Shown piece by piece: positions 49,753-55,952 of a DNA stretch of 64,000 nt (positions are counted from its first letter, which is position 1; each line of letters starts with the position of its first letter). The stretch covers positions 1 to 64,000 of the forward strand of contig JAJZTH010000009.1 of NCBI GenBank assembly GCA_021849075.1. Direction: 5' to 3'. The position numbers and the translations under genes are program-made. The notes beneath the pieces are model-generated. The model was not told the origin of the DNA and made no database searches. It saw nothing but the letters and a program-made list of their open reading frames with translations. The DNA comes from Pseudomonadota bacterium. Lineage in GTDB: Bacteria > Pseudomonadota > Alphaproteobacteria > Sphingomonadales > Sphingomonadaceae.

Positions 49753-50927
49753 GCGGCGACCGCGCCCTTCAGGCCATCTACGAACTTGCGGAACAGATAG
49801 AAGCTGTCCTGCGGACCCGGCGACGCTTCTGGGTGGTACTGCACCGAAAAGGCGCTCTTGTCGGTCAGTTCGATGCCGCAATTGCTGCCGTCGAACAGCG
49901 AGATGTGGGTCGAACGCGCATTGGCGGGCAGCGTGTCGACATCGACCGCAAAGCCATGGTTCATGCTGGTGATCTCGACCAGACCGTCCGACAGGCGCTT
50001 GACCGGATGGTTCGCGCCGCGATGGCCCTGATGCATCTTGATCGTCTTCGCGCCCACAGCGAGGCCCAGCAACTGGTGGCCAAGGCAGATACCGAACACC
50101 GGAATATCGGCCGCCAGCACGCTCTGGATCACCGGCACGGCATAGTCGCCCGTTGCCGCCGGATCGCCCGGACCGTTGGACAGGAAAACGCCGTCGGGCT
50201 TCTGCTCCATTACCTGTTCATAGCTGGCGGTGGCGGGCAGCACGGTGACGCGCGCGCCGGCCTGCACCAGATTGCGGAAGATATTGTTCTTCGCGCCATA
50301 ATCGATCGCAACGACATGGGGCCGCTCTTCGCCGGCTTCATTCAGGCCATAGCCATGGCCCAGCTTCCACACGCCGTCCTTCCACAGGCGGCTTTCCTTG
50401 CCCGTGACTTCGATGGCGAGGTCCATGCCCTCCAGCCCCGGCCATGCGGCGGCCTTGGCGGTGAGCGCGGCGATATCGAAATTGCCTTCGGGATCATGGG
50501 CGATCACGACATTGGGCGCGCCCTTGATGCGGATCAGGCGGGTCAGCGCGCGCGTATCTACCCCGGCAAGGCCAATGCGGCCATTTTCGCGCATCCACTG
50601 GTCGAAGGGTTCGACATTGCGGAAATTGCTGGGGCTGGTGACGTCCTGCCGCACGATGCAGCCCAGCGCATAGGGGCTGTTCGCCTCCACATCGTCCAGG
50701 TTGGTGCCGACATTGCCGATATGCGGGAAGGTGAAGTTGATGATCTGCCCGGCATAGCTGGGATCGGTCATGATCTCCTGATAGCCGGTGATCGACGTAT
50801 TGAAGCACAATTCGCCCACCGCGTCGCCGACCGCGCCGAAGCCACGGCCGAACACGGCGCTGCCATCGGCAAAAACCACGACCCCTGTCGCTCCTTTAGG
50901 CACAATGAGGGTCTTGGCGTCTGCCAT
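49749..50927 (-). CDS. carA: Carbamoyl-phosphate synthase small subunit
   Basis: SITGYQEIMTDPSYAGQIINFTFPHIGNVG; GICLGHQLLGLA; YHPEASPGPQDS. Confidence 0.97.
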   Translation of the reverse strand: MADAKTLIVPKGATGVVVFADGSAVFGRGFGAVGDAVGELCFNTSITGYQEIMTDPSYAGQIINFTFPHIGNVGTNLDDVEANSPYALGCIVRQDVTSPSNFRNVEPFDQWMRENGRIGLAGVDTRALTRLIRIKGAPNVVIAHDPEGNFDIAALTAKAAAWPGLEGMDLAIEVTGKESRLWKDGVWKLGHGYGLNEAGEERPHVVAIDYGAKNNIFRNLVQAGARVTVLPATASYEQVMEQKPDGVFLSNGPGDPAATGDYAVPVIQSVLAADIPVFGICLGHQLLGLAVGAKTIKMHQGHRGANHPVKRLSDGLVEITSMNHGFAVDVDTLPANARSTHISLFDGSNCGIELTDKSAFSVQYHPEASPGPQDSFYLFRKFVDGLKGAVAA

Positions 50928-51081
50928 GGTCTGCGGTCCTTTATGCTTTTGCGGGAACCCGTCTGCTGCGGGTTAAACGGCCGGTCAGGTAGGCGCGCAT
51001 CCCTCCAAGGTCAACGTCTGTTAAAAATCTCTTTTGCCGTTATATCTGCTCCTTTCCCGAAGAGACAGGATATATTCGCCG

Positions 51082-51534
51082 ATGATTCGCGAGCAGGTTA
51101 AGAGCGCCCAGATCGAGTCGATGAAGGCCGGCGACAAGGAAAGGCTGGCCGCCGTGCGCCTGATCCTGGCGAAGCTGAAGGACCGCGACATCGAACTGCG
51201 CACCGCCGCCACCGTGCCGGACGATGACGCCGTGGTCGTGGAAGTGCTCCAGAAGATGGTGAAGCAGCGCCGCGAATCGATCGACATGTTCAAAAATGGC
51301 GGCCGCGACGAACTGGCGGCCAAGGAACAGGCCGAACTGGACGTCATCGAAAGCTTCCTGCCCCAGCAACTGACCGAGGACGAAACGAAGGCCGCGATCG
51401 AAGGCATCAAGGCCGAAGTCGGCGCGTCCAGCGTGAAGGACATGGGCAAGGTGATGGCCGTGCTGAAGGAACGCCACGGTTCCGTCATCGACATGAGCAA
51501 GGCAAGCGGGCTGGTAAAGGCGGCTTTGGGCTGA
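51082..51534 (+). CDS. GatB/YqeY domain-containing protein
   Basis: MIREQVKSAQIESMKAGDKERLAAVRLILAKLKDRDIELRT. Confidence 0.93.
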   Translation: MIREQVKSAQIESMKAGDKERLAAVRLILAKLKDRDIELRTAATVPDDDAVVVEVLQKMVKQRRESIDMFKNGGRDELAAKEQAELDVIESFLPQQLTEDETKAAIEGIKAEVGASSVKDMGKVMAVLKERHGSVIDMSKASGLVKAALG

Positions 51535-51550
51535 CCTTTCGCTCATAATT

Positions 51551-51590
51551 CCCCTCCCGCTTGCGGGAGGGGTCAGGGGAGGGCATGTTC
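51551..51590. repeat. Left inverted repeat of the DUF559 element
   Basis: CCCCTCCCGCTTGCGGGAGGGGTCAGGGGAGGGCATGTTC; 37/40 identical to the reverse complement of 51933-51972. Confidence 0.92.
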
Positions 51591-51597
51591 AACCCTG

Positions 51598-51981
51598 ATG
51601 GACAAAGGCTACGCCCGCCCCACTGCAAAAGCCCGCGCACTGCGCAACAATGCCACGGAAGCCGAACGCGCTCTGTGGCACGCCATCAGCGCCCGTAAAG
51701 TTTCCAACCTCCGCTTCAACCGTCAGGTGCCGATCGGCCCTTTCATTTGCGATTTCGTGGCCCGCTCCATCAGTCTGGTGATCGAAGTTGACGGCGGACA
51801 GCATAATGACGCGGTCGATGCGGAACGGACGCGCTATATTGAAGCACAGGGCTTTCGTGTGATCCGCTTTTGGAACAATGATGTTCTGGGCAACATCGAG
51901 GGCGTGATTGAGGAAATCGAACGGGTGATTGCGAACATGCCCTCCCCCACCCCCTCCCGCAAGCGGGAGGGGAGTCTTTGA
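51598..51981 (+). CDS. DUF559 endonuclease-domain protein (PD-(D/E)XK/Vsr-like)
   Basis: LRFNRQVPIGPFICDFVARSISLVIEVDGGQHNDAVDAERTRYIEAQGFRVIRFWNNDVLGNIEGV. Confidence 0.92.
   Translation: MDKGYARPTAKARALRNNATEAERALWHAISARKVSNLRFNRQVPIGPFICDFVARSISLVIEVDGGQHNDAVDAERTRYIEAQGFRVIRFWNNDVLGNIEGVIEEIERVIANMPSPTPSRKREGSL
51933..51972. repeat. Right inverted repeat of the DUF559 element
   Basis: GAACATGCCCTCCCCCACCCCCTCCCGCAAGCGGGAGGGG; lies inside the 3' end of the DUF559 ORF and carries the dnaG SD. Confidence 0.92.
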
Positions 51982-53858
51982 CCCTCACACCCCAATGGCT
52001 GGACGAACTGCGCGCCCGCACGTCGCTGTCGACCCTCATCGGCAAGAGCGTGAAGGTCACAAAGGCCGGCCGCGAATATAAAGCCTGCTGCCCTTTCCAT
52101 AATGAGAAGACGCCCAGCTTCACGATCAACGATGAAAAGGGATTCTACCATTGCTTCGGCTGCGGCGCGCATGGCGATGCGATCCGCTGGATGACCGATC
52201 AGCGCGGCCTGCCCTTCATGGAAGCGGTGAAGGAACTGGCCGCCACCGCCGGCATGGACGCTCCCGCCGCCGACCCCCGCGCCGCCAAACGCGCCGAAGC
52301 GGCCAAGGGCCTGCACGACGCCATGGGCGCGGCGCAGAGCTTTTTTGAGGAACAACTGGGCGGCATCGATGGCGGAGATGCCCGCGCTTATATGCAAAAG
52401 CGCGGCATCACCGACGCCACCCGCCGCGCCTTCGGCTTTGGCTATTCGCCGGATTCGCGCGGTAAGCTGAAAACGGCCCTGCGCGATTTCGGCGATCCCA
52501 TGCTGGTAGAGGCCGGCCTGCTGATCAAACCCGACGGGGAACGCGACACCTATGATCGCTTCCGCGGCCGCCTCATGCTGCCGATCCGCGATATTCGCGG
52601 CCGGGTGATCGCGTTCGGCGGCCGCATCATCGGCGCTGGCGAACCCAAATATCTGAACTCGCCCGACACGCCGCTCTTCGACAAGGGCCGCACCCTCTAC
52701 AATATCGACAAGGCGTCCCCCGCCAGCCGGGCGACCGGCCGCGTCATCGTGGTCGAAGGCTATATGGACGTCATCGCGCTGGCGCAGGCGGGCTTTGGCG
52801 AAGCCGTCGCCCCGCTCGGCACGGCGCTGACCGAACATCAGATCGAGCGCCTCTGGAAAATGGTGGAGGTGCCCCTTCTCTGCTTCGATGGCGATTCGGC
52901 CGGGCAGAAGGCGGCGATCCGCGCTGCCACCCGCGCCCTCCCCCTGCTGCGCCCCGGCCACAGCCTCGCCTTCGCAACGCTCCCCAGCGGCCAGGACCCC
53001 GACGACCTGATCCGCGCCAGCGGCCGGCAGGCGATGGAAGCCGTACTGACCGATGCCGAACCGCTGATCGAGCGCCTCTGGAAACACGAAGTCTCGTCCG
53101 CACCCCTCGCCACGCCGGAGGAGAAGGCCGCGCTCAAGCAGCGGCTGCGCGCTATTTCGGACGCAATCGCCCACCCGGATGTGCGCGCCCATTACGCCCA
53201 TGAATTTCGCGAACGCTATGACGCGCTCTTCTTCGCCCGGCGCGAATCCGCGCCCGCCCAGCGACGCTTTGCCGGCGGCGGCAACGCAGGCGGCCGCTGG
53301 CAACGCGACAAACGCGGCAACTGGAAGCCGCCCATCGCCCCTGCCGGCGCGGAAGTGCGCGCGATCGGCGCCAGTGGCATGGAGCAGCGCCTGCTCCGCG
53401 CGATCCTCGCCGCGCTGCTGCGCCATCCCGACCAGATCGCCCCCCATCGCGAGATGCTGTCGGCCCTGCAAATCGGCGATCCCCTGCTCGCCCAACTGCT
53501 TGCCGCGATGATCTCTTTGTCCTTCCGAAAAGAAACAGTTGAAACACAGGCCCTCCTTACCATATTGGGGCAAGGTGAGTTGTATAATATGGCCAAGGGG
53601 ATGCTCCGGGCCGATGCGTTCACACTCACTTCCGACAGGATGAGCACCGATCCTGATCGCCTTTCGCGCGATCTGGAGGAGGCCGTTCGGGTGATGGCGC
53701 AGGGACCGGAGCTGGAAACGGCATTGGTGGAAGCCACAAGACGGTTCGAGAGCGACTTCAGCGAGGAAAATTTCGCTGAGCAGCAGCGCGTTCGCGCTCT
53801 GAAAGCCGATCATGATCGTCGACTGGCGGAACTGGCGCAGTCCGAAGACATTGTTTGA
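51978..53858 (+). CDS. dnaG: DNA primase
   Basis: LDELRARTSLSTLIGKSVKVTKAGREYKACCPFHNEKTPSFTIN zinc-finger domain; VVEGYMDVIALAQAGF TOPRIM; TTG start. Confidence 0.97.
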   Translation: MTLTPQWLDELRARTSLSTLIGKSVKVTKAGREYKACCPFHNEKTPSFTINDEKGFYHCFGCGAHGDAIRWMTDQRGLPFMEAVKELAATAGMDAPAADPRAAKRAEAAKGLHDAMGAAQSFFEEQLGGIDGGDARAYMQKRGITDATRRAFGFGYSPDSRGKLKTALRDFGDPMLVEAGLLIKPDGERDTYDRFRGRLMLPIRDIRGRVIAFGGRIIGAGEPKYLNSPDTPLFDKGRTLYNIDKASPASRATGRVIVVEGYMDVIALAQAGFGEAVAPLGTALTEHQIERLWKMVEVPLLCFDGDSAGQKAAIRAATRALPLLRPGHSLAFATLPSGQDPDDLIRASGRQAMEAVLTDAEPLIERLWKHEVSSAPLATPEEKAALKQRLRAISDAIAHPDVRAHYAHEFRERYDALFFARRESAPAQRRFAGGGNAGGRWQRDKRGNWKPPIAPAGAEVRAIGASGMEQRLLRAILAALLRHPDQIAPHREMLSALQIGDPLLAQLLAAMISLSFRKETVETQALLTILGQGELYNMAKGMLRADAFTLTSDRMSTDPDRLSRDLEEAVRVMAQGPELETALVEATRRFESDFSEENFAEQQRVRALKADHDRRLAELAQSEDIV

Positions 53859-53903: not shown

Positions 53904-55952
53904 ATGGCGACCAAGGCAAACAGCAAGAATGGCGGTGCAGGCGATGGAGAGGATGGCGGCGACGCCCCCCTGCTCGACCTCAACGAAGCCTCCGTCAAGA
54001 AGCTGATTTCCCGTGCCAAGAAGCGCGGCTACATCACCTATGACGAACTGAACGATGCCCTGCCGCAGGACCAGATGTCCTCCGAGCAGATTGAGGACAT
54101 CATGGCGGCGCTCAACGAAATGGGCGTCAACATCGTCGAAAATGAAGAAGCCAGCGAAGACGGCGACGAACAGCGCGAGCGCGAAGACGCCGACGACGCC
54201 GATGATGATTCGGGCGACGATGACGGCTCGCCCAAGCTCGTCACCGAAAAGAAGAAGGAAACGGTCGATCGCACCGACGATCCCGTTCGCATGTATCTGC
54301 GCGAAATGGGCGCAGTCGAACTGCTCAGCCGCGAAGGCGAAATCGCCATCGCCAAGCGGATCGAGGCCGGTCGCGACACGATGATCCTGGGTCTGTGCGA
54401 AAGCCCGACCACCTTCAACGCGATCATCGAATGGTCGACCGCGCTCAACAACGGCGAAATGCAGCTGCGCGAGATTCTCGATCTCGACGCCATGCTGTCC
54501 AAGGATCCTGCTCCTGAAAATATGGAGGAAGGCGCCGAGGATGATGATGGCGAGATCAGCGAAAAGACCGCCGGTCCCAGCTTCAAGGAAGAAGAAGAGC
54601 CGGAGGAGGAATCCGCCGACGGCGACGAGGATGAGGACGGCGCACCCCGCGCCCGCCGCAATGAGGAAGAAGAGGAAGAGGACAACACCCTCTCCCTCGC
54701 CCAGATGGAAGAAACTCTCAAGCCGATGGCGCTTGAGAAGTTCGCGACCATCACCGAAATCTTCCGGGCTTTCTCCAAGGCGCAGGAATCGCGCATGATC
54801 GCCATGGCCAATGGCGAACTGCTCAGCCAGAAGGCCGAGGATGATTATCAGGAACTGCGCGAAAGCCTGACCGCAGAGGTCGAAAGCGTTCAGTTCCACC
54901 AGCAGAAGATCGAATATCTGGTCGATCAGCTCTATGCCTATAACCGGCGCCTGACCGCGCTGGGCGGCCAGATGCTGCGTCTGGCCGAACGGCACAAGGT
55001 CAGCCGCAAGGATTTCCTGGATCGCTATGTCGGCAATGAATTGGACGACGCCTGGCTGGAAAAGGTGCAGGGCCTCGACAAGAAATGGGCCGCCTTCGCC
55101 GCTGCCGAAGCGCGCGCGGTCGAGCGCATCCGCAACGAAGTGAGCGAAATCGCGCAGGCGACCGGCATGTCGCTTTCCGAATTCCGCCGCATCGTGAACA
55201 TGGTGCAAAAGGGCGAGCGTGAAGCGCGCATCGCCAAGAAGGAAATGGTGGAGGCCAATCTGCGCCTCGTCATCTCCATCGCCAAGAAGTACACGAACCG
55301 CGGCCTGCAATTCTTGGATCTCATTCAGGAAGGCAATATCGGCCTGATGAAGGCGGTCGATAAGTTCGAATATCGTCGCGGCTACAAGTTCAGCACCTAT
55401 GCGACCTGGTGGATCCGGCAGGCGATCACCCGTTCGATCGCGGATCAGGCGCGGACCATCCGCATCCCGGTCCACATGATCGAAACGATCAACAAGCTGG
55501 TCCGCACCAGCCGCCAGTTCCTGCATGAGCAGGGCCGTGAACCGACGCCGGAGGAAATGGCAGAACGCCTGTCCATGCCGCTGGAGAAGGTGCGCAAGGT
55601 GATGAAGATCGCCAAGGAGCCGATCTCCCTCGAAACGCCGATCGGCGACGAGGAAGACAGCCATCTGGGCGACTTCATCGAGGACAAGAACGCCATCATC
55701 CCGGTGGACGCGGCCATTCAGGCGAACCTGAAGGAAACCGTCACGCGGGTTCTGGCGTCGCTTACTCCGCGCGAAGAGCGTGTGCTGCGCATGCGCTTTG
55801 GCATCGGCATGAACACCGACCATACGCTTGAGGAAGTGGGTCAGCAGTTCAGCGTGACCCGCGAACGCATCCGTCAGATCGAGGCAAAGGCGCTGCGCAA
55901 GCTCAAGCACCCCTCGCGCTCGCGCAAGATGCGGTCCTTCCTCGATCAGTAA
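53904..55952 (+). CDS. rpoD: RNA polymerase primary sigma factor RpoD
   Basis: [79 protein letters not shown]. Confidence 0.98.

Follow-up and report, generated by a model that had tools for sequence, protein, structure and literature searches.

A nuclease element with palindromic ends in front of the primase gene of a Sphingomonadaceae bacterium, and its possible role in translational coupling

Closest described systems

Mycobacterial interspersed repetitive units (MIRUs) are apparently mobile repeats that lie within operons, positioned at start codons (Supply et al., 1997, as described in PMC12548453), and their internal open reading frame (ORF) is coupled to the host gene at a −4 nt spacing (PMC12548453). 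Described here is an element in a 64,000 nt stretch of DNA (termed the window) from a Sphingomonadaceae bacterium, probably a Sphingobium (assembly GCA_021849075.1, contig JAJZTH010000009.1), where a DUF559 nuclease-family gene bounded by palindromes stands directly in front of dnaG, the essential DNA primase gene. The right end of this element probably hands ribosomes on to dnaG, and it is the hand-over, rather than the nuclease, that appears to be kept by selection. The closest known kind is the MIRU. The likeness, which is one of geometry only, is an element ORF positioned at −4 or near it at dnaG, trpA, aroC, hisZ, ligA and other genes. The differences are that the ORF is a nuclease gene (DUF559 or GIY-YIG) and that the element is about 420 bp long in its DUF559 form, has palindromic ends, carries a Shine-Dalgarno (SD) sequence in an end palindrome and is found in Sphingomonadaceae. 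It does not fall within the short mycobacterial repeat family and is not classed as a MIRU.

Short overlaps with an intragenic SD have been found experimentally to couple translation elsewhere, with an SD contribution that varies by gene pair (PMC6728339). These termination-reinitiation pairs share with the present locus a 4-nt or 1-nt overlap and an SD that lies inside the upstream ORF, close to where it ends; TTGA at 51978–51981 is an overlapping stop/start of just this type (−4 or −1). They differ in that the upstream gene here can be replaced by unrelated genes, and the SD belongs to a repeat end. Another recognised mechanism is for the ribosome on the upstream gene to open a hairpin that sequesters the SD (PMC12548453). 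In the present case the downstream SD would likewise lie in a hairpin opened by the ribosome of the upstream gene, and folding predictions show the SD paired when that ribosome is absent. What sets this locus apart is that its hairpin belongs to the end of a repeat, and that the overlap persists at related junctions which lack the hairpin.

Repetitive extragenic palindromic (REP) sequences, their doublets (REPINs) and the associated RAYT transposases (TnpA-REP) form a third point of comparison (PMC8266576, PMC3733652). The resemblance lies in dispersed GC-rich palindromes, some in close doublets, and in matching ends around the encoding gene. Dispersed copies are many, with 33 palindrome sites in the 3.67-Mb genome compared with 1 for a reversed control pattern. 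In contrast, the gene between the palindromes encodes DUF559 and not a Y1 transposase (no search for a RAYT elsewhere in the genome was made), and the two palindromes and flanks inspected have no GTAG/CGTC tag at the palindrome foot. The arms of the element are C/T- and G/A-rich, and thus the 3′ arm is SD-like on either strand. Palindrome doublets approximately 70–130 bp apart occur genome-wide in genome G000 (e.g. C2:29801/29896, C13:366528/366623 and C20:69394/69486). These are REPIN-like, with a spacing too small for a nuclease gene between them. A literature search found no earlier description of DUF559 with palindromes, GIY-YIG repeats or REP near ribosome-binding sites in sphingomonads, although absence is not proof.

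The yqeY-DUF559-dnaG junction

The element, approximately 420 bp in all, lies at the yqeY/dnaG junction and comprises a DUF559 gene with a C/T-rich palindrome on either side, the two in inverted orientation. The features of the region are as follows.

51082–51534, + strand: yqeY (PF09424), the upstream operon partner, identified by profile match
51551–51572, no strand assigned: left terminal palindrome of the element, CCCCTCCCGCTTGCGGGAGGGG, an inverted copy of the right palindrome
51598–51981, + strand: DUF559 nuclease-family gene, 127 aa (PF04480, E=5.7e-36)
51951–51972, no strand assigned: right terminal palindrome, a 9-bp RNA hairpin with a CAAG loop
51966–51970, + strand: GGAGG in the palindrome's 3′ arm, the SD of dnaG, with a spacing of 7 nt to the TTG
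51978–51981, + strand: TTGA, the dnaG start overlapping the DUF559 stop by 4 nt
51978–53858, + strand: dnaG, DNA primase, 626 aa, Pfam-confirmed
53904–55952, + strand: rpoD, the primary sigma factor gene, next in the yqeY-dnaG-rpoD cluster

The DUF559 assignment is confirmed by its Pfam match (123 bits against a curated cut-off of 20.6), and the nearest named DUF559-dnaG relatives are in Sphingobium, with S. psychrophilum at 93%. The dnaG start codon is TTG at 51978–51980 and the DUF559 stop codon is TGA at 51979–51981. The right palindrome is perfect, CCCCTCCCGC-AA-GCGGGAGGGG, and ends 5 nt before the TTG; drawn as a hairpin it reads CCCCTCCCG-CAAG-CGGGAGGGG. Together with the bases after it, it encodes the C-terminus of the nuclease, PTPSRKREGSL, and at the window junction it is the source of the only strong SD of dnaG. 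The original prediction that a palindrome arm supplies this SD therefore stands, and re-reading confirmed all of its hairpin, GGAGG, TTG and TGA coordinates.

The sequence CTCCCGCNNGCGGGAG is present twice in the window where none is expected. With the excess of genomic sites over the control, this argues that the palindrome is not a product of chance. RNA structure prediction places the SD window in a paired state essentially throughout the ensemble (P(unpaired) ~0.00). The 96-nt region overall is not unusually stable (z = −1.35), its stability being confined to the palindrome. A scan of 50900–52300 for sigma-70-like promoters gave none, which is a weak negative in this bacterial group. The junction has no U-tract and no terminator-like site in a terminator scan, and an Rfam search returned only chance matches, all below cut-off.

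The dnaG slot in related genomes

The yqeY-dnaG junction was compared in 60 genomes of the genus and in 88 loci of a family sample with a recognisable dnaG start, of which 145 in total have a measurable gap. The gap is shorter than 90 nt in 46 junctions, and in the commonest short type the yqeY stop is approximately 10–13 nt before dnaG. Within the genus, 28 slots hold DUF559, 18 hold a GIY-YIG gene and nine have a gap below 90 nt; the corresponding numbers in the wider family sample (n=85) are nine, seven and 37. The second slot family is a GIY-YIG nuclease unrelated to DUF559 (catalytic domain PF01541, E=4e-17). In L024, L031, L048, L065 and others its gene, flanked by repeats of the CGTTTCTCGACTTCGCTCGAAACGAACGG type, takes the place of DUF559 between yqeY and dnaG and likewise terminates on the dnaG start.

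The stop/start arrangement is well conserved. Among DUF559 carriers, 33/37 have a nuclease ORF that ends between −6 and +10 nt relative to the dnaG start, and the same is true of all 25 GIY-YIG carriers, where random frames predict 16.3 and 9.7; the observed values were reached in 0 of 20,000 simulations, in a test that accounts for the frequent NTGA at the dnaG start and not for the relatedness of genomes. By this test, pure chance from frequent NTGA is insufficient to explain the DUF559 stop overlap. Of nine shortened nuclease ORFs, eight (23, 23, 48, 50, 52, 73, 87 and 89 aa) likewise stop at the dnaG start and one, in L069, does not. Among 65 named DUF559-dnaG loci, from Sphingobium, Sphingopyxis, Sphingomonas, Novosphingobium, Stakelama, Parerythrobacter and a few other genera, the nuclease ends within 0 to +10 nt of dnaG in 54.

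The supply of the SD follows a related pattern. GGAGG is found 7–8 nt from the dnaG start in 31 of the 65 named loci, and in 30 of these 31 it is in the palindrome arm; in the other loci it is mostly 12–49 nt away. Outside Sphingobium, the 7–8 nt GGAGG accompanies 16/20 non-ATG starts compared with 9/35 ATG starts (p=1.7e-4). In the 148-locus set, a strong SD is present with 8/10 TTG starts and 16/138 other starts (p=6e-6). The G-rich right arm of the DUF559 type is kept in 12/25 GIY-YIG carriers, as against 0/46 junctions with a gap below 90 nt. Loci L048 and L051 have lost the left arm and still possess the G-rich one, and SD supply therefore persists without masking. The suggestion that the hairpin masks the SD is plausible for the window junction, where the pairing is predicted; it is not general, given these two loci and the many overlaps with neither SD nor hairpin.

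Several other junctions deserve mention. L199 has 97 nt between yqeY and dnaG, with a palindrome and its GGAGG arm directly before dnaG and no nuclease; one frame reads through into dnaG. In L050, L058, L070, L074 and L077, a subclade without the element, a TATAAT box is situated 5–6 nt before the dnaG ATG, which suggests a leaderless dnaG transcript. L262, L271 and L287 carry a second DUF559 copy approximately 3 kb upstream of dnaG, in which the right palindrome spans the stop codon and there is no co-directional neighbour.

The same arrangement at other host genes

Ninety-three DUF559 loci were collected from 31 genomes of the genus. A hairpin with a stem of at least 8 is found in the left flank of 87 and the right flank of 78, compared with 24/400 random windows. 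For at least 50 of the 93, the distance from their end to the start of a co-directional host gene is no more than 20 nt; the figure is a lower bound, since automatic start calling put some host starts in the wrong place (trpA in L266, aroC in L278). About 20 have no adjoining co-directional gene. Placement at host starts is thus frequent, not universal. The hosts include trpA (after trpB), nrdB (after nrdA), aroC (after a FabI-like gene), hisZ, nadB and ligA, and in Sphingomonas an element lies before folC, behind an AccD-like gene; the FabI-like and AccD-like names were given from sequence without a profile test. A DUF559 element also precedes a conserved 151-aa ORF (LSDEDDIQDALADF...) that has no NCBIfam match, with a TTGA or ATGA overlap in most cases (L018, L283, L317, L320, L322, L324, L331, L332 and L343).

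Perhaps these loci belong to a class of Sphingomonadaceae nuclease elements, DUF559 or GIY-YIG with palindromic ends, that colonises the stop/start junctions of essential operons, bringing a portable SD and an ORF that ends on the host start, with families that swap. This wider proposal is tentative, its chances being put at slightly below even.

Proposed mechanism and alternative explanations

The right palindrome would have three roles: it forms part of the nuclease C-terminus, it folds as a hairpin, and its G-rich arm provides the SD of dnaG. Ribosomes ending the nuclease would open the hairpin and, since the last bases of the nuclease ORF are also the first of dnaG (TTGA), could reinitiate there, i.e. 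termination-reinitiation aided by RNA unfolding. De novo initiation on dnaG would be low while the hairpin is closed. Selection would then maintain an upstream ORF that ends at the dnaG start, with the nuclease itself interchangeable and losable. That dnaG is coupled to the ORF preceding it, as proposed originally for primase and nuclease, is well supported by sequence geometry, with an overlap kept across genera and in two unrelated nuclease families. It is inferred further that dnaG translation would depend on the hand-over, that the hairpin would be repressive and that the elements would have arrived by active insertion.

Several observations weigh against a hand-over of ribosomes. Eleven of the 65 named loci have 47–235 nt between the nuclease stop and dnaG and cannot be tightly coupled. 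An element placed in a gap of only 12 nt will inevitably end close to the following start codon, and hence closeness alone is partly a matter of geometry; codon 2 of dnaG often starts with A, so a +1-frame TGA is often ready. Many relatives with the overlap have no SD and no hairpin, and on the genus tree phylogenetically independent pairs of start codon and SD are few (~6.6 vs 1, median p=0.07), which is suggestive only. A rival reading is that the arrangement is a geometric accident, in which a short operon gap forces palindrome and stop beside the dnaG start, initiation on dnaG is independent, and hairpin and nuclease have no effect. The gap in empty relatives is indeed only about 10–13 nt, NTGA at the dnaG start often provides a stop in one frame automatically, and element-free dnaG genes usually have no strong SD, so that SD-less initiation is workable. 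Nevertheless an accident is unlikely: DUF559 carriers keep the frame at twice the chance level and GIY-YIG carriers without exception, shortened ORFs remain open up to the start, the SD arm outlasts the left arm, and weak start codons accompany the arm SD. A role of the palindrome at the transcript level, as a terminator, pause, RNase processing site or mRNA stabiliser of the sort proposed for REPs, might tune dnaG against yqeY and rpoD; in its favour is a strong GC-rich hairpin between yqeY and dnaG, of a type dispersed in the genome. It is improbable in view of the missing U-tract and terminator-like site and of GIY-YIG junctions that keep the overlap often without a hairpin, and the stop/start overlap would be left unexplained.

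The original prediction went further and proposed ‘addiction’, i.e. that the element is not easily lost because dnaG depends on translation of the nuclease. Overlap and SD would in principle make a right-end deletion costly, and right ends do stay when the rest of the element changes. The tree gives no sign of such retention. Slot contents need at least 25 changes, close to the mean of 27.6 for shuffled labels, on a tree of 60 genomes built by a quick method from yqeY and the dnaG start (549 columns), limited by the short alignment and by possible exchange of the region. DUF559 presence alone requires 20 changes, 12 of them forced by well-supported branches. Supported sister pairs differ, e.g. 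L020 with DUF559 and L031 with GIY-YIG, both with a TTG start and the same palindrome adjoining dnaG. Some slots are empty, and nuclease ORFs that have been shortened still keep the overlap; addiction to the nuclease is thus very improbable and that part of the prediction is not supported. The least credible of all is a nuclease that acts with the primase or in replication, for repair or defence, with a coupling to dnaG that would set the stoichiometry. The DUF559-dnaG neighbourhood does occur in several genera, and DUF559 proteins resemble Vsr-type endonucleases (PMC12907096). However, the same family is found in the same arrangement before trpA, nrdB, aroC, hisZ, nadB, ligA and folC, and before dnaG it has been swapped for an unrelated nuclease or lost.

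Significance

If ribosome hand-over by the right end of the element is correct, a selfish or domesticated element would be able to enter an essential operon junction harmlessly by restoring the ribosome-binding site and the overlap that it disrupts. This would suggest that the G-rich 3′ arms of these palindromes have an explanation on the side of the host. The dnaG slot, with two unrelated nuclease families and their shortened remnants, would then be an experiment, replicated in nature, on the requirements of translational coupling.
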